Origin: an uncultured Marinicella sp.
Lineage (GTDB): Bacteria > Pseudomonadota > Gammaproteobacteria > Xanthomonadales > Marinicellaceae
Assembly (NCBI GenBank): GCA_947502595.1
Contig: CANNAM010000007.1
Span: forward strand, 1 to 64,000
Length of the DNA stretch: 64,000 nucleotides
Reading direction: 5' to 3'
Under the pieces are notes generated by a model that worked only from the letters and a program-made list of their open reading frames with translations, did not search any database and was not told the origin of the DNA. This document shows positions 4,206 through 31,541 of this stretch, one piece after another. How positions within the stretch are numbered: position 1 is the first letter of the stretch; each line of letters opens with the position of its first letter. The translations under genes and the position numbers were made by a program.

Positions 4206-4434
4206 ATACACACACACTTCATTTTTAATATATGTGACTTATATCACAGAAAATTAAGCAGTAAACCTTGTGAGTGAATAAAAGTTACATTTTTAACAAT
4301 TTGTAACACAGTTCACAAAAATGTTTTGTTGCTTATGGTCTCTTAATATCTTTGGTGTGGATACAGTGACAATTACTGTCACATTTTTATTCTCAGGTAA
4401 TCTGGCAACTCAATAACCCCTGTTTGGCAGCTGA

Positions 4435-4989
4435 TTATTGTTGTGGAACCCGCTTAATTTTGTCTTTGTCATAACCTTGTTCAATGGCAATCTGAACCAA
4501 CTGATTTAATTGCCGTTCTGAAATTTTCGGTTTTCGAGCCATAATCCATAAATAGTCACGTTTGGTTCTGCCAATAATGCTGTATTCATAAGCGGGATCT
4601 ATGTATACAATAATAAATTCTGATTTAAAAGGCCAAAGAAATTGCATCTTCCAAGCTGCGTTGGATGGATCGTCAGTAACAAAGCCGGTGGGATTGTATT
4701 GTTTAACAGGTCCAGTAAAGCTGTCCTTGTTAAATGAAAAGAGGGTGTCAATTACGCCAGGTTTTATCAGCTTATAGCTTTCTACGGCATTGTGTGCGCC
4801 TTTCTCAATAAAGGTAGGGATATTAGCAATTACATACCAATCTCCCATAAATAAATCTAAATTGACTTTTTCAGCCATTTTGATGGGCGGGCCTGTACGA
4901 CATGACTGAAAAGCAAACAGTGAGACTGTAATGAGTGTAATGGCGCCGATAATTTTTATCATATTATTTGATGGGTAAATCAACAGCAT
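4435..4989 (-). CDS. Bacterial lipocalin (Blc-like) outer-membrane lipoprotein
   Basis: A 184-residue lipocalin. The signature G-x-W lies at residues 49-51 (FMGDWYVIANIP), followed by a beta-barrel with GPVKQYNPTGFV and a C-terminal YLWIMARKP...LNQLVQIAIEQGYD segment, as in Blc. A hydrophobic leader ends FAFQSC (Cys30). This is a weak lipobox, so lipoprotein anchoring is likely but not certain. The ATG at 4962 (MIKIIGAIT...) gives a more typical lipoprotein leader than the one at 4989; neither has a clear ribosome-binding site. Blc proteins bind fatty acids or lysophospholipids at the outer membrane. The gene stands alone between two unrelated minus-strand loci. Confidence 0.88.
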   Translation of the reverse strand: MLLIYPSNNMIKIIGAITLITVSLFAFQSCRTGPPIKMAEKVNLDLFMGDWYVIANIPTFIEKGAHNAVESYKLIKPGVIDTLFSFNKDSFTGPVKQYNPTGFVTDDPSNAAWKMQFLWPFKSEFIIVYIDPAYEYSIIGRTKRDYLWIMARKPKISERQLNQLVQIAIEQGYDKDKIKRVPQQ

Positions 4990-22316: not shown

Positions 22317-24491
22317 TTATGGCTGTTGTTCAAAACCATCAGCAAAAATCAAATCAATGTAACTGGTACCACAAGTTCCACCAGACACAAATATACATTC
22401 AACCCATTCAGGATGGTCAATGAATGGATTTCTGTTTTGTTGTTTGGTGAAAATAAAATTATTGCGGTTCCTTTCGATGTCATCTACAGGATCAGCTGCA
22501 TGCCATTGAAGTAAGGTGGACAGCAGTCCCATATACCTGTCGCCAGTTTGAATCAAGCCGGCATTGTCGGTCAGTTCCAAGTCAACTTCCCCAGCCACAT
22601 CACCAGAATAGCGCACATCCATATAAAACATGGCACGTGCAATATCGCCTTTGCGGAAGTTCCAAACTTCAAACGAGTTTGAATCGAACCAGTTTGAGTT
22701 GCCTGGATAAACACCAGAACCACCGCCAATGACGTCATTTACCGGGGTGTTTGGATTTTCATGGGCATCAGTTGGTCTTTCAGTACATGAAGCTGAGCAA
22801 TTATCAAAATACAGGTTGCCTCGATCACTGTTGTAGCCAACATCAGACATCATCAAATGGTGCGCATCAGTCCTGGCGGCATTGTTATCACCTAACGCGC
22901 CACTGCTGAAGCCATAAGATTGTGGCCACGTGTGTTCACGGTTGTACGCTTGTTGGCCACCACCTTGGTAGGTGTAGTTATTATTTTTATAAATCATCCA
23001 TACTTGACCTGGCTCATTGGGGTCTTCATCAGCAATGGATAACACGTCCCAAGTGTCTTCAGCTCCCGATGAATAGGGGAACATCACATGGTCATCAATG
23101 ATTTCATGCAAACTGTCTCGCAAGGTTTGCGCTGAGCTGTCATCGGCTGTGGCATAATAGTCTTCAAAGGTCACACAATTGATGTTTTCAGCGCCAGGGG
23201 ATGGTAAAAAAGCCTTGAATGAATGGCTGTTTAACTGCCCACCTGAACCATTGGTACAACGAATCAGAGATTCAGTCATGGCAGCGCCATTGGCATTTTC
23301 ATTGAGTTGCGCTTGGCCAGGGTTCAATAAAGTTAATAATTCAGCATCATCGGCTTGTCCTGTACCATAGACCACAGCATCCATAATGTCGGTTGTGGTG
23401 ATCGCATCACCAACTAAATAATTCATTGAATCCGCTGCATACAAGGCCACTGCATCAACACCATCTTCTAAGCTGTTGTTGAGCAATAAAAAGCCATTGG
23501 CGTCTGTGGTCATGCCGTCTAATCCGATAACTGCGGTAGCAAGATCGGTGTCACCATCGTACAGCACGATGGTGTATCCATCGAGTGAAGTGTTGGCATT
23601 ACCAAACAGCTCAATAAAGTCAGCATTGTTGCTGATGGCGTCGATTTCGTTGATCACAAACTGTGCCACAGGGGGCGCAATGTTGGCAGCTGCATTGGGT
23701 GTAGGTGTTGATTCAGCAAAAGTAAAATCAGTGTTTTCTGAAGTTTCGTCGCTGCCAGCAAAACCATTGCCGCCGGATTGAACTTCAGCGCCTTCGCTCA
23801 TGTCGATGCGTTGCCAACTGTTGCCTGAAGCATGGGCACTGGTAGCAACAGCAATTTGCGCACTGATGGCCGTGTCATTTTGGTACATGGTGGTGATTGA
23901 GTCAGCATCAGGTCCATCAATGTCGATGCCAGTTTTATCAATTGCTTCAACTTTATCGCCCCAGACCACGTAATCTAGGTCTTGAACCAAGTCAGAGGTG
24001 CCGTCCCAATGCAATAAGACCACCACTTCGCCACTGTTATTAGTCAAACTCCCTTGGCCATTGATTGATAAAGTAATTGCTTCACGCATGTCAGGAATAG
24101 CATCTGCTGTTGCGCCATCCTCATACAATTCATAGGTGGGCTGAACGCCATACGCAGTGAAAAAATTATCCGAGCCATCAAGGGCCACTGTTTGGTATTC
24201 ACCGGCAGCAATGGTCGCGCCAGCGGGGAAGCGGGCAAAGAAATCTTCAAAATTACCACCGCCACCGCCACCGGTGACCAGTTGGTAATAATAAGTTCCG
24301 CCATTGGAAAAAGTGGCGTCAGTTAAATACACGTCAGAAAGGTCAATAGGATCCAAACCCTTGTTGTGTATTTCAATGAACTCATCACTGTTTGGTACGA
24401 TCTTGATTTCTGTGATAAGTAAGTCCTCAAGTCCTGCTTGAGCGATAAAAGCCATGCCAGTACACAGCCATAGGGAGGTGATTATCTTCAT
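22317..24491 (-). CDS. Secreted endonuclease I with two lamin-tail domains and a DGFE C-terminal tail
   Basis: A 724-residue exported nuclease. Residues 1-19 are a signal peptide (MKIITSLWLCTGMAFIAQA). Two lamin-tail domains follow (LLITEIKIVPNSDEFIEIHN near residue 25 and FVINEIDAISNNADFIELFG near 285). The catalytic endonuclease I domain occupies about 430-710, with the signature NREHTWPQSYG at 517-527 and DAHHLMMSDVGYNSDRGNL. The protein ends IFADGFEQQP, a tail frequent in secreted proteins of Xanthomonadales-like bacteria. It probably degrades extracellular DNA for nutrients or biofilm turnover. The gene is monocistronic. Confidence 0.92.
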   Translation of the reverse strand: MKIITSLWLCTGMAFIAQAGLEDLLITEIKIVPNSDEFIEIHNKGLDPIDLSDVYLTDATFSNGGTYYYQLVTGGGGGGNFEDFFARFPAGATIAAGEYQTVALDGSDNFFTAYGVQPTYELYEDGATADAIPDMREAITLSINGQGSLTNNSGEVVVLLHWDGTSDLVQDLDYVVWGDKVEAIDKTGIDIDGPDADSITTMYQNDTAISAQIAVATSAHASGNSWQRIDMSEGAEVQSGGNGFAGSDETSENTDFTFAESTPTPNAAANIAPPVAQFVINEIDAISNNADFIELFGNANTSLDGYTIVLYDGDTDLATAVIGLDGMTTDANGFLLLNNSLEDGVDAVALYAADSMNYLVGDAITTTDIMDAVVYGTGQADDAELLTLLNPGQAQLNENANGAAMTESLIRCTNGSGGQLNSHSFKAFLPSPGAENINCVTFEDYYATADDSSAQTLRDSLHEIIDDHVMFPYSSGAEDTWDVLSIADEDPNEPGQVWMIYKNNNYTYQGGGQQAYNREHTWPQSYGFSSGALGDNNAARTDAHHLMMSDVGYNSDRGNLYFDNCSASCTERPTDAHENPNTPVNDVIGGGSGVYPGNSNWFDSNSFEVWNFRKGDIARAMFYMDVRYSGDVAGEVDLELTDNAGLIQTGDRYMGLLSTLLQWHAADPVDDIERNRNNFIFTKQQNRNPFIDHPEWVECIFVSGGTCGTSYIDLIFADGFEQQP

Positions 24492-24613
24492 TTATATGTT
24501 TTCCTGCTAATTTCGATGCAGATATTCTAACTGCAATTTATGACAATTTGTGTGACTCAATAGCCAATCTAATTAACTTGTATAAAGATGGATAAAAACA
24601 CTTAAAAAAAACT

Positions 24614-24641
24614 AAAAAAGGCCGCCTATTGGCAGCCTTTT
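24614..24641 (-). terminator. Rho-independent terminator of the hvf operon
   Basis: On the minus strand AAAAGGCTGCC-AATA-GGCGGCC folds into a GC-rich stem followed by TTTTTTAG. It lies just beyond the hvfX stop codon. Confidence 0.78.
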
Positions 24642-24665
24642 CATCGCTTTAAGCGTTGCCTTGTG

Positions 24666-25331
24666 TTAACCGTTTGGGGTTATAAAACGATCGGCCACCA
24701 TCAACAACAGCCCACCAACCAGTAGGGCAACTCCAATAGTTTGCATCACAAAAAATAATGGTAAACCAATAACAACCAGGCCCAGTCCTTTAGCAATGAA
24801 GTCTGAAGTGATTGGGTGCTTGGCATCGCCACCAAAGAAGTGGGTTAATAAATGGTCTAGACTGAATTTCCCGGCACCAGAGAACACCAATGGTAACAGC
24901 AGCAACATAAACAGCAATGGCAGTTTGAAGTTGCCCGCGCCTTTGTTTGAAATGGCGTAGCCTTCCCACAGTTGCCCCAGTGAGGAGTAGCTCTCTGGCC
25001 AGTGCACAGCTGCTGTGGCCACCGCTGTGATGACCAGTAATGACACGGCTGCAAATCGGGTAAACAAGCCTAATAACAACATTATGGCAAAAATATATTC
25101 ACCCCAAGCCGCCATAAACCACGAGATATCAGCAGGTATGTAGTTGAATGGAAAAGGAAAGTTGCTTTGGATGCCGGCAAACCAGTTATCCCCTTTTATT
25201 TTACCAACACCGGCTTCATAAAACTCCCAAAACAGGATCAAACGAATGAATAGGGCAGGTAACCATTGACCCACTGAATTGAGTCTGCTGGTGAGTTGAA
25301 CCCAATGATTTTGTAAAGAGTGAAATGACAT
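24666..25331 (-). CDS. hvfX: DoxX-family membrane protein of the RiPP operon (HvfX-like)
   Basis: A 221-residue DoxX-type integral membrane protein with about five or six hydrophobic helices, marked by LFIRLILFWEFYEAGVGKIK, AAWGEYIFAIMLLLGLFTRF and LFMLLLLPLVFSGAGKFSLD. Family members next to DUF692/DUF2063 genes are named HvfX and are thought to help maturation, redox supply or handling of the copper-binding peptide; the exact role is not settled. It is the last gene of the operon, 18 bp after hvfC, and is followed by a strong terminator. Confidence 0.88.
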   Translation of the reverse strand: MSFHSLQNHWVQLTSRLNSVGQWLPALFIRLILFWEFYEAGVGKIKGDNWFAGIQSNFPFPFNYIPADISWFMAAWGEYIFAIMLLLGLFTRFAAVSLLVITAVATAAVHWPESYSSLGQLWEGYAISNKGAGNFKLPLLFMLLLLPLVFSGAGKFSLDHLLTHFFGGDAKHPITSDFIAKGLGLVVIGLPLFFVMQTIGVALLVGGLLLMVADRFITPNG

Positions 25332-25349
25332 GTTGTGCTCCTGTGTTGC

Positions 25350-26111
25350 TTACTTTGTAGTTGTTAAGATGATGTCTTGAGCATACCATTGTTCGAGGGT
25401 TTGTAGTCCAAATTGGATGAATTGTTGCGTGTCTGGGTGTTGGTGGTCGACAGCCAATTGCTCAAGTGCTTGCTGTCCTGAGTGTGTAGATTGATTGATC
25501 AGCGTTTCCAGCAACATGGCTGAAAAAGGGTTCATACTGCTGAAGTGAACTTGGTAGTTTGTATCACGCCACACCACCATAAAAAGGGGTTGATCCAGTG
25601 GTTTTTGCGGTTGAAAACTGGGTTTGATTTGATGCACTGGAAATTGATAGCTGTGTATACGAACCAAGGGTGATACCACTGGCACCTCATTCAACAATGA
25701 ACTGCCATCAACTGCGGTTTTTTCTACCTCAATACAATGCTTATCTAAATGCAGCTCCAACCATTCATAATGAGCCAACTCATACAAAAAAGGTTTGTCT
25801 GGGTCAATTTGTTGGTGGTCTTTTAAAAACGCCACAAACTCTCTGGGTATTTCTGGAAAGTGCGGAGTTTTGTTGTGTTCTTGCTTGAAATAAGACCGGA
25901 TCAGTTGCTGCCAATCGACGTCATTATACAGTGACCTCAGTACTGGGAAGGAGTCAGCCAATAGGCCTGCAATGCTGTTAATGAACAAGTCTCGATAAAT
26001 GGCCATGCGGCGTTCTTCAATGGCATCTGGCTTGGGATGTAATTCAGGGTTTCTGATGTGCGCAGCAAACGCCAATTGAGCTTGCTTAAAGGATGGCTTG
26101 TTGTGACTCAT
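25350..26111 (-). CDS. hvfC: RiPP maturation partner protein, DUF2063 (HvfC/BufC)
   Basis: A 253-residue protein from the ATG at 26111 (MSHNKPSFKQAQLAFAAHIR). It has the DUF2063 N-terminal domain (IEERRMAIYRDLFINSIAGL, a family hallmark) and a C-terminal domain typical of HvfC/BufC. In characterised systems this protein binds the precursor leader and delivers it to the DUF692 enzyme. An upstream in-frame codon would add 37 residues lying inside hvfB and unlike the family, so I reject it. The start lies 26 bp inside the hvfB coding region, so the two partners are translationally coupled. Confidence 0.92.
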   Translation of the reverse strand: MSHNKPSFKQAQLAFAAHIRNPELHPKPDAIEERRMAIYRDLFINSIAGLLADSFPVLRSLYNDVDWQQLIRSYFKQEHNKTPHFPEIPREFVAFLKDHQQIDPDKPFLYELAHYEWLELHLDKHCIEVEKTAVDGSSLLNEVPVVSPLVRIHSYQFPVHQIKPSFQPQKPLDQPLFMVVWRDTNYQVHFSSMNPFSAMLLETLINQSTHSGQQALEQLAVDHQHPDTQQFIQFGLQTLEQWYAQDIILTTTK

Positions 26112-26943
26112 GATGGTGGGTGTATTTGGCTTGTAAAGCATCGATTCTGCTGACTTCTGCCAACAGCTCTGACACCGGTGGATAGTTGAAGTCGCGTTCC
26201 AGCAGAGTGGGGTAGACACCATGGTTTTTATAGGTGTGCTCTAAAATATTCCAGACTTTTTCGATCACAGCAGCGCCATGGGTATCAACCAGTAAGTCAT
26301 CAGCTTCATTGTAGTGACCTGCCACATGCATATAGGCGATGCGTTCGGTTGGTAACTGGTCAACAAATTGCAGTGCATCGTAACGGTGGTTAACACTGTT
26401 GACGTGGACGTTGTTGACATCCAGGTGCAGCAGACAATCCGCTTTATCAAGCACATGATTGATGAACTCAAGTTCGGTCATTTCGGGGTTGGGTTGGGTT
26501 AAATAATAGGACACATTTTCTAAGGCCATGCGTTCACCTAAAATGTCCTGTACACGCATCACCCGGTCTGCTACGTAGTTGGCTGCGTCTTCGGTAAAAG
26601 GAATGGGCATCAAGTCGTACAGTTGGCCACCATCACTGCAATAGGATAAATGTTCTGAGTAGATGGGTGCTTTGATTTCTGCTTTGAATTTTTTCAAGGC
26701 TTTTACAAAGGCCACATTCAGTTCATCTGGGCCGCCTATAGATAAAGATAAACCATGTAAAACCATGGGGTATTGTTCAGCAAAAGCCCGAAAGTTTTTA
26801 CCTGCTTTACCTCCCACTGTCATCCAGTTTTCTGGTGCTACTTCCATAAATTGTACAGGATTAAGTTTACCATGAGTGAGAAACGGGGACATCAGTCCCC
26901 GCCTCAAACCGATACCGGCACCTGAAAGATTTAAAGATTTCAT
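26086..26943 (-). CDS. hvfB: MNIO (DUF692) iron enzyme modifying the EGKCG peptide (HvfB/BufB)
   Basis: A 285-residue TIM-barrel DUF692 protein of the multinuclear non-heme iron oxidase family. Visible blocks are GAGIGLRRGLMSPFL, FMEVAPENWM, VLHGLSLSIGG, IYSEHLSYCSDGG, ALENVSYYL, LLHLDVNNVHVNS and YMHVAGHY. Together they supply the His/Glu/Asp residues that bind two or three irons in this family. Relatives oxidise cysteines of the precursor into oxazolone-thioamide or thiooxazole groups that chelate copper. The start is 26 bp after hvfA, with a small CCGA-AGC-TCGG hairpin between that could damp expression relative to the precursor. Confidence 0.94.
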   Translation of the reverse strand: MKSLNLSGAGIGLRRGLMSPFLTHGKLNPVQFMEVAPENWMTVGGKAGKNFRAFAEQYPMVLHGLSLSIGGPDELNVAFVKALKKFKAEIKAPIYSEHLSYCSDGGQLYDLMPIPFTEDAANYVADRVMRVQDILGERMALENVSYYLTQPNPEMTELEFINHVLDKADCLLHLDVNNVHVNSVNHRYDALQFVDQLPTERIAYMHVAGHYNEADDLLVDTHGAAVIEKVWNILEHTYKNHGVYPTLLERDFNYPPVSELLAEVSRIDALQAKYTHHHESQQAIL

Positions 26944-26969
26944 TTCAGTTCATCCGAGCTTCGGCCGCC

Positions 26970-27545
26970 TTATTTACCGGCGCCGCACTTGCCTTCAGCG
27001 TCTTTGTCGGTTTTGTCAGCTTGGTCTTCATGGCCTTCACCACATTTGCCTTCACCGCATTTACCTTCGCCACATTTACCTTCGGCGTCTTTGTCATGGC
27101 TTTCACCACATTTACCTTCACCGCATTTGCCTTCGCCACACTTGCCTTCGGCATCTTTGTCATGGCCTTCACCACATTTGCCTTCACCGCATTTACCTTC
27201 GCCGCATTTACCTTCGGCGTCTTTGTCATGGCCTTCACCACATTTACCTTCGCCGCATTTACCTTCGGCGTCTTTGTCATGGCCTTCACCACATTTACCT
27301 TCGCCGCATTTGCCTTCGGCATTGTTGGCTTTGGCTTTGTCGTCACCACCACATTTGCCTTCACCACACTTGCCTTCTCCAGACCCGTCGGCTTTAGCAA
27401 TGCGTCCGTCGGCATTTTGATAACCGTCACTTAAGTCGTTTTGACCAAATGGGTTGTCAGTACCGTTCATCAATGCACCCGCTCCAATAACAGTTACAGC
27501 GGCTGCAATGGCAGCATTTACAGGTTTCAATTTAAAGTTTTTCAT
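26970..27545 (-). CDS. hvfA: RiPP precursor with sixteen EGKCG motifs (HvfA/bufferin-type metallophore)
   Basis: A 191-residue precursor. The leader has an exported hydrophobic stretch (AAIAAAVTVIGAGALM) followed by TDNPFGQNDLSDGYQNADG, matching the NPF...L..GY..AD block of HvfA-family precursors. From residue 57 to 188 the protein consists of EGKCG units in clusters of two or three, separated by EGHDKDA linkers. There are sixteen motifs and sixteen cysteines, with no cysteine elsewhere. By family knowledge each motif is a modification site giving copper-binding groups, with the product acting in the periplasm or outside. The ribosome-binding site GGAGGAG is strong. Copper chelation here is inference. 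Confidence 0.94.
   Translation of the reverse strand: MKNFKLKPVNAAIAAAVTVIGAGALMNGTDNPFGQNDLSDGYQNADGRIAKADGSGEGKCGEGKCGGDDKAKANNAEGKCGEGKCGEGHDKDAEGKCGEGKCGEGHDKDAEGKCGEGKCGEGKCGEGHDKDAEGKCGEGKCGEGKCGESHDKDAEGKCGEGKCGEGKCGEGHEDQADKTDKDAEGKCGAGK
26982..27377 (-). repeat. Coding tandem repeats of 51 and 66 bp in hvfA
   Basis: Units read AEGKCGEGKCGEGHDKD (17 aa, 51 bp) or the same with a third EGKCG (22 aa, 66 bp). Motif numbers per cluster from N- to C-terminus are 2, 2, 2, 3, 3, 3, 1. The DNA is also repetitive, suggesting growth by slippage or recombination. Confidence 0.9.
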
Positions 27546-27644
27546 CTATGTCTCCTCCGAGGGAATGAATAATTAAGTTCGTTTTCTGTTGTTTCGAATC
27601 GTTCATCAATTATGGATTGGCATGTGGCCAAATACTGAAGAATA

Positions 27645-27690
27645 ATTTCGGTGTTTATTATAAGCACATAGAGTTGACCACAAACAATAA
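27645..27690 (-). promoter_or_regulatory. Candidate promoter of the hvf operon
   Basis: A perfect TATAAT on the minus strand (27657-27662) follows TTTGTGG-like DNA that gives only a poor -35. The predicted start is about 105 nt upstream of the hvfA ATG, leaving a long leader. No ECF-type GTAAC/CGTC promoter was evident by eye. Confidence 0.4.
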
Positions 27691-27700
27691 AAATAATCAC

Positions 27701-27735
27701 AAAAAAAAACGCTCAATAGTTGCTATTGAGCGTTT
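27701..27735 (-). terminator. Terminator of the 2-oxoacid dehydrogenase operon
   Basis: AAACGCTCAATAG, loop of 3, CTATTGAGCGTTT: a 13-bp perfect stem with a nine-base T-run on the minus strand. It separates the E2 gene from hvfA. Confidence 0.88.
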
Positions 27736-27767
27736 AATGGACTGCGTTAATGAAAAATTAACGTATT

Positions 27768-29105
27768 TTAACGGGCTTTATTCAAATCCTTGATCATGGC
27801 AGCTAAGAATCGTGCTGCTTCACCGCCAGTAACTGCACGGTGATCAAAAGTTAATGACAGCGGAATAATTCTGTGGGCTTCCATCCCGCCTAACACAGGC
27901 ACCACGTCATGTCTGAGTTTGCCAGCTGCCACAATTGACACACACGGTGGCGTAATCACTGGGGTGGCATAGCGACCTGCATAAACACCAAAGTTAGATA
28001 ACATGATGGTGTAATCTTTCATGTCCTCTGGAGGGATGCTGCGTGATTTGACTTGGGTTTTGATGGTGTTCATTGCCGCACGGACTTGCTCAGCTGACAT
28101 CGAGTCACAATTGCGCATAGTAGGTACAAATAACCCATCTTCAGTATCAACCGCAATACCCACATCAACATGGCTGATCAGCCTTCTGGATAACTTGTCG
28201 CCATCAAACCAGGCATTTAAAGTAGGCTCAGCTTGCGCTGCAACGACCAATGAGCGAATCAGACGCACAGTGATGTCTTCACCTGCTTGCCAATTATTGA
28301 TATCGGCATCATCCATGATGGTGGTAGGTACCACATTGGCATGTGCATTTTGCATTACCCGTGCCATGGTTCGACGAGAACCTTTGACCTGTTGCCATTG
28401 GTCATCTGCAGTTGGCTTGGTTGCTTTGGGTGCTGTCGGTTGAGGTGTTGTTGCCTGTTTAGGTGCCTGGGTTGCAGCCGGAGTGGCTTGCACTTTAGCA
28501 GGTACAGCTTTGGCGCTTGGGTTGGCAGCAGCTGCTTTGACATCAGAAGGTCTGATGACTCCTCCTGTACCGGTGGCTTCAACCGTACTGAGGTCAACCC
28601 CCAGTTTTTTCGCTAAAGCACGCACTGCTGGAGCAGCTTTTTTGCCGCCAAAGTCAGTCATGCTGTCAACTACGGCATCAGATGATTCCATTTGGCCAAC
28701 CACTGTACCAATGGCTTCTTTGGCTGCAGGTTGTTCATCTGCTGTAGATTGGTTGTCGTGCAAGTCTTTCAGCACCTGTTCGGCTTCAGCACGCAATTTT
28801 GCGGCTGAATCGTTACCTGGTTCAGGTAAGTTGGTTTGCGTGGCTTCGCTGCTTTTTGCTGCGCTGCCATCGCCAGTATCAAATTCAATCAAAGGTGCAT
28901 CGGTGTCAATAACATCACCAGGCTCACCGTACAAACGTGTGACTGTTCCATTCACAGGTACTGGCACATCGACCACTGCCTTGGCGGTTTCCATAGAAAC
29001 CATCGGTTGGTCAACCTCAACTTTGTCACCCACCTTTACATGCCATTCAACAATCTCTGCATCAGGTAAACCTTCGCCCAAATCGGGCAATTTGAAAATA
29101 CTCAT
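27768..29105 (-). CDS. 2-oxoacid dehydrogenase E2 (dihydrolipoamide acyltransferase)
   Basis: A 445-residue acyltransferase core of a pyruvate- or branched-chain 2-oxoacid dehydrogenase complex. The lipoyl domain (residues 1-77) carries the lipoylation lysine K42 (SMETAKAVVDVP). A long Ala/Thr-rich linker flanks a peripheral subunit-binding domain (APAVRALAKKLGVDLSTVEA). The C-terminal catalytic domain ends SLTFDHRAVTGGEAARFL. The catalytic His is kept, but the usual following Asp-Gly (HRxxDG) reads Thr-Gly. Its ATG overlaps the E1-beta stop by 4 bp. The substrate (pyruvate or branched-chain 2-oxoacids) cannot be fixed from sequence alone. Confidence 0.93.
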   Translation of the reverse strand: MSIFKLPDLGEGLPDAEIVEWHVKVGDKVEVDQPMVSMETAKAVVDVPVPVNGTVTRLYGEPGDVIDTDAPLIEFDTGDGSAAKSSEATQTNLPEPGNDSAAKLRAEAEQVLKDLHDNQSTADEQPAAKEAIGTVVGQMESSDAVVDSMTDFGGKKAAPAVRALAKKLGVDLSTVEATGTGGVIRPSDVKAAAANPSAKAVPAKVQATPAATQAPKQATTPQPTAPKATKPTADDQWQQVKGSRRTMARVMQNAHANVVPTTIMDDADINNWQAGEDITVRLIRSLVVAAQAEPTLNAWFDGDKLSRRLISHVDVGIAVDTEDGLFVPTMRNCDSMSAEQVRAAMNTIKTQVKSRSIPPEDMKDYTIMLSNFGVYAGRYATPVITPPCVSIVAAGKLRHDVVPVLGGMEAHRIIPLSLTFDHRAVTGGEAARFLAAMIKDLNKAR

Positions 29106-30082
29106 GAAACCTCCATCACTTGATTCACTTTATCTAAAATTCTGTCCACTGTCGGCATGTATTTTTTCTCTAGCTTGAACAGTGGCATGATTGTGTCATA
29201 GCCGGTAACTCTTTTAACTGGCGCATTGAGGTTATACAAACCTTGGTCAGCTAAGTTGGCAGCTATTTCTGAGGACACAGAACAGTGTCTGGCTGCTTCT
29301 TGAATGATCACACAGCGACCGGTCTTGGCCACTGACTCATGGATGGTCTCCATGTCTAAAGGACTGATGGTGGCCACGTCAATGATTTCTGCAGAAATGC
29401 CACGTTTGGCAAGAATGTTAGCAGCTTCAATGGTTTCTTTCATCATCGCGCCCCAAGTGACTAAAGTCACATCATCACCTTCGCGATCAACATAACACAT
29501 GTCCAATGGGTATTCTTCACCATCATTTTCAACTTCTTCTTTGTTTAAATGATATACACGTTTAGGCTCTAAGAAAATGACCGGATCAGGGTTTCTGATG
29601 GCAGCCAGTAACAAACCATAAGCTCGGCTTGGTGAAGAGGGTACAACCACTCTGATACCAGGCATGTGAGCAAACATGGCTTCGGTGCTTTCTGAATGGT
29701 GTTCAGGGGCATGGATGCCACCGCCATAAGGCGCACGAATTACCAATGGACAGGTCAATCTTCCACGAGTTCGGTTGCGCATGCGGGCAGCGTGACAAAT
29801 GATGTGTTCAACCATGGGGTAAATAAAACCCATGAACTGGGCTTCCGCAATTGGTTTCATGCCTTGGGTGGCCATACCAACTGTCATACCAGCAATCATG
29901 GCTTCAGCCAAAGGCGTGTCGATGACGCGGTCTTCACCATACTTTTGGGCTAAACCGTTGGTGGCTCTGAAAACACCGCCGTTGATGCCTACATCTTCAC
30001 CTAAAATAACCACGTCTTTGTCATGTTCTAACTCATGCGCCAGTGCCATGGTGACTGCTTCTACCATTGTAATTTTAGCCAT
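29102..30082 (-). CDS. 2-oxoacid dehydrogenase E1 component, beta subunit
   Basis: A 326-residue E1-beta subunit (transketolase pyrimidine-binding and C-terminal domains) of the heterotetrameric E1 type. Characteristic blocks are VVILGEDVGINGGVFRAT, RVIDTPLAEAMIAGMTVGMA, MEETI-equivalent MKETIEAANIL, and CVIIQEAARHCSVSSEIAA. With the alpha subunit it binds thiamine diphosphate and decarboxylates a 2-oxoacid before transfer to E2. It overlaps both neighbours (8 bp with E1-alpha, 4 bp with E2), giving a tightly coupled three-gene operon. Confidence 0.95.
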   Translation of the reverse strand: MAKITMVEAVTMALAHELEHDKDVVILGEDVGINGGVFRATNGLAQKYGEDRVIDTPLAEAMIAGMTVGMATQGMKPIAEAQFMGFIYPMVEHIICHAARMRNRTRGRLTCPLVIRAPYGGGIHAPEHHSESTEAMFAHMPGIRVVVPSSPSRAYGLLLAAIRNPDPVIFLEPKRVYHLNKEEVENDGEEYPLDMCYVDREGDDVTLVTWGAMMKETIEAANILAKRGISAEIIDVATISPLDMETIHESVAKTGRCVIIQEAARHCSVSSEIAANLADQGLYNLNAPVKRVTGYDTIMPLFKLEKKYMPTVDRILDKVNQVMEVS

Positions 30083-31172
30083 TAGACTTCTCCTGCATAG
30101 CCATTTTTTCTATTTTTTCAGCATAGGCTTTTTGGGCTGCCAAATCATGCGGTAATTCTTCGAACATATAGTCAAACATATCAGCCACAGATAAATCTGA
30201 TGCACTTTGGTATTCTTCAACTGCTGCATCCACTTCTACTTTACAAGTACTCAGTAGTTGGTTTTCCAATTGCTCATTCCATTGACCTTGGCTGGTCAAA
30301 TATTTGCGCATGCGTTTAATCGGCTCGAATTGTTTGGCATTTTCAACTTCATCACTCGGACGGTACCTAGATGCATCGTCAGCAGTGGTATGGTCACTCA
30401 AGCGATAAGTAATCGCTTCAATTACTGAGGCGCCTTTGCCTTCATAAGCTCTTTTCAGTGCTGATTTTACAGCGGTATAAACAGCAATGTAGTCATTACC
30501 GTCAACTTGAATTGAAGGCAAACCGCTGGAAATGCCTTTTTGTGCCAAAGTGCGTCCTTGACTTTGTTTTTTACGCGGGACTGAGATGGCCCATTGGTTG
30601 TTGACTATCATCAGCACCATAGGTAATTGGAAGGCACTGGCTGCATTAATCGCTTCTAAAAAGTCGCCTTTTGAGCTGCCACCGTCACCGACCACGGAAA
30701 CTGCCGCACGTTTTTCGCCACGCAATTTAAAGGCCAAGGCTGCGCCAGCTGCATGGGTACATTGGGTGGCAATTGGCACACACCAAGGAAAGTCATGTTG
30801 TGGGCCTGAAAAATTACTGCCTCGCTCATCACCACCCCAGTACAACAGCACCTCAGACAATTTCACACCGCGGAAAAATTGAGCGCCGTACTCACGGTAC
30901 ATAGGAGCAAATACATCAGACTCTGCCATGGCTGCACCGATGCCTATATGAACGGCTTCATGCCCTAAACAGGACGCATAAGTACCAAGTTTGCCGGTGC
31001 GTTGTAAAGCCACGGCTTTGGCGTCAAATGTTCTGGTCAATACCATCAACTCATATATAGATTTTAAGTGTTCAAAATCAGTGGCAACGGTGGGTTTTTT
31101 ATCACCAACCAATTCCCCGTTTGGCGTGAGGTACTGCAAATAATCAATGTTAAATGATGCGACTGTGGTCAA
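30075..31172 (-). CDS. 2-oxoacid dehydrogenase E1 component, alpha subunit
   Basis: A 365-residue E1-alpha subunit. The thiamine diphosphate motif is VVGDGGSSKGDFLEAINAAS...IVNNQWAIS, and the phosphorylation-loop region reads YRLSDHTTADDASRYR. The start is chosen at a TTG (31172) that has GGAG seven bases upstream and gives the usual family length. A GTG at 31178 is possible, while the longer frame to 31271 adds an unrelated 33-residue extension. It is first in the E1-alpha/E1-beta/E2 operon. No E3 gene is in the window, so the complex must use a dihydrolipoamide dehydrogenase encoded elsewhere. Confidence 0.92.
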   Translation of the reverse strand: MTTVASFNIDYLQYLTPNGELVGDKKPTVATDFEHLKSIYELMVLTRTFDAKAVALQRTGKLGTYASCLGHEAVHIGIGAAMAESDVFAPMYREYGAQFFRGVKLSEVLLYWGGDERGSNFSGPQHDFPWCVPIATQCTHAAGAALAFKLRGEKRAAVSVVGDGGSSKGDFLEAINAASAFQLPMVLMIVNNQWAISVPRKKQSQGRTLAQKGISSGLPSIQVDGNDYIAVYTAVKSALKRAYEGKGASVIEAITYRLSDHTTADDASRYRPSDEVENAKQFEPIKRMRKYLTSQGQWNEQLENQLLSTCKVEVDAAVEEYQSASDLSVADMFDYMFEELPHDLAAQKAYAEKIEKMAMQEKSNG

Positions 31173-31541
31173 TTTCACTCTCCGAAAAATTTGATGTACT
31201 GGTGTGAAACATCGAATAAAGTATTGCTTGCTGAACAGTTGGTAAACCAGGCAATCAAAATAAATGTTCACACATGGGATGTCAGGACTTTGAGTGTGTA
31301 TTCAATAAAATAGCTTGAATAACTATTCATTGTCTTGTCATCTTAATTATAATGCTTCAATACATGAGGTCTTAGACAACTTCAGATGGTTGGGTCAGAC
31401 TGCTGGGCATATTTACACCAGCGAAGCGCACAGTATTATATAGGAATCTGTATTTTTATTAAATGCCAGTGGTTACTTATATTCAGATATTTTGTTGCAG
31501 TCCCAATTCAGTCCAACATATAACAATATACAAGCTAAAAC
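31173..31541. other. Divergent intergenic region between E1-alpha and kynA
   Basis: 369 bp with no convincing gene. A TATAAT at 31348-31353 faces kynA but lacks a good -35. A TTACACCAGCGA motif at about 31410-31421 recurs in other intergenic regions of this window. Confidence 0.4.

Follow-up and report, generated by a model that had tools for sequence, protein, structure and literature searches.

A well-preserved hvfABCX operon with a 16-motif EGKCG array in Marinicella, and related arrays without maturase genes in a sister genus

What is made by a short bacterial gene in whose product every cysteine sits in one repeated five-residue motif, is a run of 16 such motifs out of the ordinary, and can arrays of this kind exist without the enzymes that modify them? 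The locus that raises these questions lies in a stretch of 64,000 nucleotides (the window) from an uncultured Marinicella sp. (GCA_947502595.1, contig CANNAM010000007.1). The window carries a typical member of a known RiPP family, with a long array and in a good state of preservation. PMC13419390, PMC12668002, PMC12538549 and PMC12452194, to which it is compared, are cited throughout from excerpts of their text.

The hvfABCX operon of the window

The hvfA precursor gene (26970-27545, minus strand) encodes 191 residues and begins with an ATG, 5′ of which lies a purine-rich ribosome-binding site that is kept in close Marinicella loci. Residues 1–56 (27378-27545, minus strand) comprise the putative signal peptide and the leader, which contains NPFGQNDLSDGY, and are followed by a core (26973-27377, minus strand) that ends in a final EGKCG-AGK-stop. 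The initial annotation had described 16 EGKCG motifs in clusters of 2-2-2-3-3-3-1, together holding all 16 cysteines, and our motif count confirmed this. The cysteines occupy residues 60, 65, 80, 85, 97, 102, 114, 119, and 124 in the first four clusters and 136, 141, 146, 158, 163, 168, and 187 in the remaining ones; all 16 fall inside exact EGKCG copies and none lies elsewhere. The linkers had been given as EGHDKDA, with His and Asp. Three have exactly this sequence and five of the six contain His, but the other three differ: ESHDKDA and EGHEDQADKTDKDA occur once each, and the first linker, GDDKAKANNA, is without His.

The EGKCG array is not due to chance; when the core was shuffled 20,000 times the maximum was two EGKCG copies and the mean 0.04. 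Pairwise comparison of the 16 copies gave 226 synonymous and no nonsynonymous base differences, the zero being partly a matter of construction as the copies were selected by peptide, which leaves the confinement of all cysteines to exact copies unaffected. TRF analysis of hvfA resolved tandem units of 51 bp (17 residues with two motifs) and 66 bp (22 residues with three motifs). The copy number is that of the given assembly; the same array breaks the assemblies of several relatives. Genome-wide, all nine matches to an adjacent EGKCG pair fall within the window hvfA. Two long open frames, 26876-27434 (plus strand) and 26945-27430 (minus strand), overlap hvfA and are probably by-products of the repeat.

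The HvfA N-terminus carries positive charge followed by a hydrophobic stretch. In all 12 aligned Marinicella HvfA sequences the leader residues N31, P32, F33, Q35, D37, L38, G41, Y42, and N44 (NPFxQxDLxxGYxN) are invariant. An AlphaFold2 model made with these 12 sequences places one low-confidence helix at residues 8–21 and leaves the core without a fold (mean pLDDT 38.6, pTM 0.15); such a model bears neither way on the published beta-helix idea.

Three further genes follow on the same strand: hvfB (26086-26943, minus strand), encoding an MNIO (PF05114) maturase, hvfC (25350-26111, minus strand), encoding a DUF2063/RRE partner, and hvfX (24666-25331, minus strand), encoding a DoxX-type membrane protein. 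The HvfC start was placed, by choice, at the Met preceding the family match. All four products passed NCBIfam equivalog cut-offs: HvfA with 118.6 bits for NF050188 (cut-off 95) and 149.3 bits for NF050137 (cut-off 19.5), HvfB with 411.2 bits for NF003818 (cut-off 360), HvfC with 289.5 bits for NF050145 (cut-off 142), and HvfX with 132.9 bits for NF050144 (cut-off 80). Against the Pfam model PF05114, HvfB scored 341.4 bits. These scores bear out the proposal that hvfA encodes an HvfA-type precursor accompanied by hvfB and hvfC, to which the adjoining hvfX can be added. The 12 aligned Marinicella HvfA proteins all match NF050188 and NF050137 at E values up to 0.001; in six-frame scans the NF050188 cut-off was passed by the window only (one of 81 and one of 274 genomes), its relatives scoring below it. 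The locus thus combines a repeated EGKCG holding the cysteines with an adjoining MNIO gene and a DUF2063/RRE partner gene, as in the HvfA family. It does not belong with Buf1 (DUF2282), as the precursor matches no Pfam family at E values up to 0.01 and HvfB stays below the BufB cut-off (263.8 versus 310).

The solved chain nearest to HvfB is 3BWW (E 4.1e-73), HvfC matches 3DEE (E 3.5e-7), and HvfX has no solved structure at E values up to 0.1. Twelve HvfB residues from conserved MNIO motifs (H63, H98, E142, D175, N177, N178, H206, H210, D220, H222, E249, and D251) are the same in all 81 sequences compared (the window HvfB and 80 named relatives). By motif, the DTH pair and the DVNN Asn appear to match D242, H244, and N175, which are essential in Haemophilus influenzae HvfB (PMC13419390). 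The named HvfB loci most similar to that of the window belong to Marinicella. The genome holds this one MNIO gene. A second MNIO gene with an adjoining DUF2063 gene was seen in three Marinicella genomes (G007:C111, G009:C89, G016:C52).

Upstream of hvf lie 2-oxoacid dehydrogenase genes (27768-31271), with a terminator-like hairpin at their 3′ side (27707-27735, minus strand) and a similar hairpin in the upstream alignment. A putative promoter-like element, GGTCA ... GTGCTTATAATAAACACC (27650-27679, minus strand), is located 5′ of hvfA. Among 16 aligned loci, its TTATAAT is kept in those near the window and absent in more distant ones; a sigma-70 scan of 27500-27800 gave no site on the hvfA strand, so it is conservation that suggests this element. 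Rfam returned nothing at the gathering threshold for 24000-28500. The E2 gene is found upstream of hvfA at all 15 other Marinicella loci in which the hvfA start is present, and in one genome of a sister genus, g4 (L246). Among the 80 named loci, many of them cut upstream, eight have an E2 match, seven in Marinicella or close kin and the eighth at L112, where it covers 79 residues at 38%. A functional tie between hvf and E2 was rejected; we treat the arrangement as inherited gene order. On the other side, a large protein (22317-24491, minus strand), which we take to be endonuclease-I-like, adjoins hvfX, an adjacency kept in several relatives. Far from the operon, at 88-638, lie 2.1 copies of a 264-bp unit (93% identity), which may belong to a repetitive surface protein.

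By analogy with the characterised systems, the operon very probably is of oxazolin/captophorin type and directs the synthesis of a Sec-exported, copper-binding 5-thiooxazole RiPP. HvfC would recognise the HvfA leader, HvfB would oxidise the EGKCG cysteines to 5-thiooxazole with loss of four hydrogens per cysteine, and the peptide would leave via Sec and bind copper, for which it would probably act in the envelope as a buffer or sink. The 5-thiooxazole is the modification of fontiphorin, oxazolin, and gonophorin (PMC12668002), and HvfBC converts cysteine to it with loss of four hydrogens (PMC12668002, PMC13419390). The oxazolone/thioamide assignment formerly made for oxazolin has been revised to 5-thiooxazole (PMC12668002, PMC13419390); of the two chemistries suggested for the window peptide, oxazolone-thioamide had been named first and thiooxazole second. 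HvfA without its signal is modified far less well than the full-length protein (PMC13419390). In vitro, a two-repeat FonA peptide was modified and a one-repeat peptide was not (PMC12668002), and thus the lone last HvfA motif may stay unmodified. Gonophorin has been observed with one or two Cu, and stochastic copper binding is suspected for EGKCG products (PMC12668002). Among the papers listed for Marinicella and copper, none appeared relevant. With the window, a copper-binding RiPP family whose cellular role is under study gains a further member, well formed and with a long array.

Motif number within and beyond Marinicella

The initial annotation stressed that known HvfA-type precursors have fewer motifs and proposed a comparison of counts across homologues. 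With the window included, the 12 complete Marinicella hvfA genes have 18, 17, 16, 16, 14, 12, 12, 11, 10, 9, 8, and 8 KCG/EGKCG motifs; at least 16 occur in three of the 11 other genes, so that 16 is ordinary for a genus that spans 8 to 18. Three more Marinicella arrays are split across two contigs (10 + 8, 9 + 8, and 8 + 9 motifs), another is split 6 + 6, and one contig end holds five motifs.

The wider sample consisted of 93 distinct complete precursor ORFs with two or more KCG, in which 80 named HvfB-chosen loci are mixed with HMM-chosen ones. It omits 23 contig-cut ORFs, three fusion genes, duplicates, and further copies of the locus in the window, and contains a few short or frame-broken ORFs. 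The median is seven motifs and six ORFs reach at least 16. The 80 HvfB-chosen loci comprise 55 with a complete array (median seven, at least 16 in two of the 55), 14 that are cut, and 11 without an ORF of at least two KCG. Another 28 loci from across the class (30 ORFs) reach 14 motifs at most. In print, Buf_EGKCG members span 31 to 506 residues with up to 58 cysteines (PMC12452194). Thus, the motif number exceeds the five to eight of the characterised members, as the annotation had it, and the median of the wider sample, but it is not unusual within the genus or against the published maximum.

These counts bear on the idea that the window array is an exceptional high-capacity sponge to which linker His and Asp add further ligands. 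Such a reading can point to a number well above the median of the 93 ORFs, only six of which reach 16, and above the class-wide maximum, and to His in five of its six linkers; but with three of 11 congeneric genes at 16 or more, 58 cysteines on record (PMC12452194), and five of 12 Marinicella cores devoid of any His, we regard it as highly improbable. Linker His and Asp as extra ligands are not a conserved property. The linkers drift between acidic and Lys-rich forms while EGKCG persists. Triplet clusters were also considered as a feature specific to the genus and rejected, as triplets are found in other genomes.

Could the repeat number instead be an artefact of assembly, collapsed or expanded? 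Contig ends fall inside hvfA in five of 17 Marinicella relatives, where rounded contig numbers predict about 0.6 (Monte Carlo P ~0.00014), and motif counts from draft genomes may therefore be lower bounds. The copies in the window differ synonymously, however, and the longest tandem unit, 66 bp, should be resolvable by ordinary reads, which makes an artefact improbable for the window count. We propose that array length is under loose constraint and changes through duplication of the 17- and 22-residue units. As it ranges from 8 to 18 motifs across the species of one genus, array length can be used as a variable.

Arrays and hvfX without hvfB and hvfC in a sister genus

The family survey covered 33 genomes, among them 18 of Marinicella, 11 of a sister genus, g3, and three of g4. 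In Marinicella, PF05114 and NF050137 arrays are each present in 17 of 18 genomes, both being absent only in G015 (81% complete). In g3, arrays exceed the NF050137 cut-off in eight of 11 genomes, whereas PF05114 and PF09836 (DUF2063) are each found in one; in the six g3 genomes of good quality, arrays occur in five and PF05114 in none. The sole g3 MNIO gene (G030) belongs to a separate cluster with a short Cys precursor, a DUF2063 protein, and a sigma-factor-like gene, which on reading looks like a Buf1/bufferin-like cluster.

HvfX is above its cut-off in six of the 11 g3 genomes. In G019, G023, and G030 the array is followed directly by hvfX, without hvfB or hvfC (L233 4838-6854, L232 1246-2615, L230 1-941; the G030 array is cut by a contig end). 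In G023 and G030, the gene after hvfX is the nuclease gene that also adjoins hvfX in the window, indicating that the corresponding locus lacks hvfB and hvfC. The array of G027 is followed by the nuclease gene without hvfX. Lipobox-like KCG-array genes with up to 20 KCG were also seen in g3 (L233 5551-6039, L235 3298-3789, L234 2640-3278, L240 4774-5208). At L240 (G021:C25, ~4290-4707), the first array gene appears frame-broken after two motifs, with more motifs in another frame.

PF05114 is present in two of the three g4 genomes and an HvfC match at all 80 named HvfB loci, and in the HvfX tree (23 rows) the sequences of g1, of g3, and of g4 each group as a single clade, without clear order among the three; the tree omits four g1 and two g3 loci in which no ORF passed the filter. 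Taken together, these data make loss of hvfB and hvfC in g3 the simplest history. We found no report in the excerpted family literature of genus-wide hvfB-hvfC loss with hvfA and hvfX retained, although one may exist elsewhere. The g3 arrays indicate that an array can be kept without a strict need for its modification. PMC12452194 counts 2583 genomes that have Buf_EGKCG precursors, 67 of them without MNIO genes, and the excerpted text leaves undecided whether such peptides function unmodified or have stopped functioning.

An alternative is that the arrays resemble metallothioneins and bind mainly through thiols, with no or partial modification, MNIO action being an optional refinement. The excess of arrays over PF05114 and PF09836 in g3 would fit this, as would three g3 arrays in which Lys precedes every Cys-Gly, with mixed TGT and TGC codons (the residue three before Cys varies), and two of 72 array genomes in the class sample in which MNIO is missing (70 have it). 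Against it, PF05114 and the arrays go together in Marinicella down to their joint absence from G015, and the leaders differ between Marinicella and g3, so that the g3 arrays may have a new role. We consider this alternative unlikely.

The leader difference concerns an LxxG[YF] motif before the first EGKCG. The initial pattern, [DEN][LMIVF]xxGY, was present in 34 of the 55 named leaders and, for other families of the order, in 20 of 25. When loosened after the fact to [LMVIF]x2-3G[YF], it matched 55 of 55 named, 16 of 16 Marinicella, and two of 10 g3 leaders, versus 5–10% of shuffled ones. Both g3 matches sit in the signal peptide, and after SPF none of six g3 leaders (two identical) has the pattern. 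A stricter pattern recovered 53 of the 55 named leaders and all but one of the 16 from Marinicella (L021, which carries DLDNGY, was missed through the cutting rule). In a recount of leaders beside HvfB (30-residue cut), the motif was found in all 18 class leaders, in 44 of the 45 named ones, and in 30 of the 36 from the order or family, or 92 of 99 distinct ones. Four of the seven misses have GY just where the leader was cut and one (L017) is out of view; the other two, L132 and L133, are true exceptions near HvfB.

Where HvfB is missing the picture is mixed. L156, a class leader with no HvfB in reach, is without LxxG[YF]; in G216, one of the two MNIO-less array genomes and a member of another family, both arrays lack it with NPFGM kept; and the other, G270, keeps IQNGF. 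The G216 arrays (L237 4004-4447 and L238 3917-4207) have 12 and six KCG, without PF05114. Judged from sequence, LxxG[YF] thus appears to accompany HvfB-linked precursors as a strong tendency and not as a rule.

KCG motifs also occur in g3 outside short precursors. In G021, G027, G031, and G032, a lipoprotein of ~380 residues carries four or five KCG between its lipobox and a metallo-beta-lactamase-fold domain, while orthologues in G019, G023, G029, and G030 are the same enzyme without KCG motifs and a fifth (G026) is cut (fusion and orthologue loci L148 1173-2309, minus strand; L149 582-1811; L178-L181). The best likeness of this domain is to SoxH-related quinoprotein-relay hydrolases, with a score under the model cut-off (183.7 versus 280). 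EF-hand fusions are the only ones named for Buf_EGKCG in the excerpts of PMC12452194, and a search for literature on DUF692 with a lipoprotein and metallo-beta-lactamase returned, judged by title, nothing on the subject.

Our tentative reading of g3, slightly less likely than not, is that KCG arrays and HvfX can work without thiooxazole, and that g3 lost hvfB and hvfC from the hvf locus but kept an array beside hvfX, with LxxG[YF] decaying and arrays spreading to lipoproteins and the fusion. If this is true, the role of HvfX, termed uncharacterised in PMC13419390, would concern the array (redox or metal handling, for example) and not the maturation of the array, and HvfBC would recognise its substrate in part through LxxG[YF]. 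With an array and a DoxX protein but no modifying enzymes, the g3 lineage offers a natural test of the need for modification and of the role of HvfX.

Comparison with characterised systems

A close likeness is to HvfA/oxazolin of nontypeable H. influenzae, which has the same hvfA-B-C-X content, a signal (putative in the window) and leader, EGKCG pairs, an MNIO, and a DUF2063/RRE partner. Its precursor has six cysteines in three AEGKCGEGKCG motifs (PMC13419390), whereas the window HvfA has 16 in pairs and triplets. The captophorins fontiphorin (FonABC) and gonophorin (NgoABC) share EGKCG repeats, an MNIO with a PME1 partner, and, as a likeness to the product proposed here, 5-thiooxazole; FonA has seven modification sites (PMC12668002) compared to 16 motifs in the window. 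Repeated EGKCG, an MNIO, and DUF2063 are likewise common to the window and MmrA of Microbulbifer, in which five to eight cysteines lie in EGKCG units (PMC12538549). Finally, the window resembles Buf_EGKCG type 1, in which EGKCGEGKCG and a seven-residue linker make up the published family repeat of 17 residues with two EGKCG (PMC12452194). It differs from this type in that three of its six linked units carry three motifs, with lengths of 22, 22, and 29 residues.
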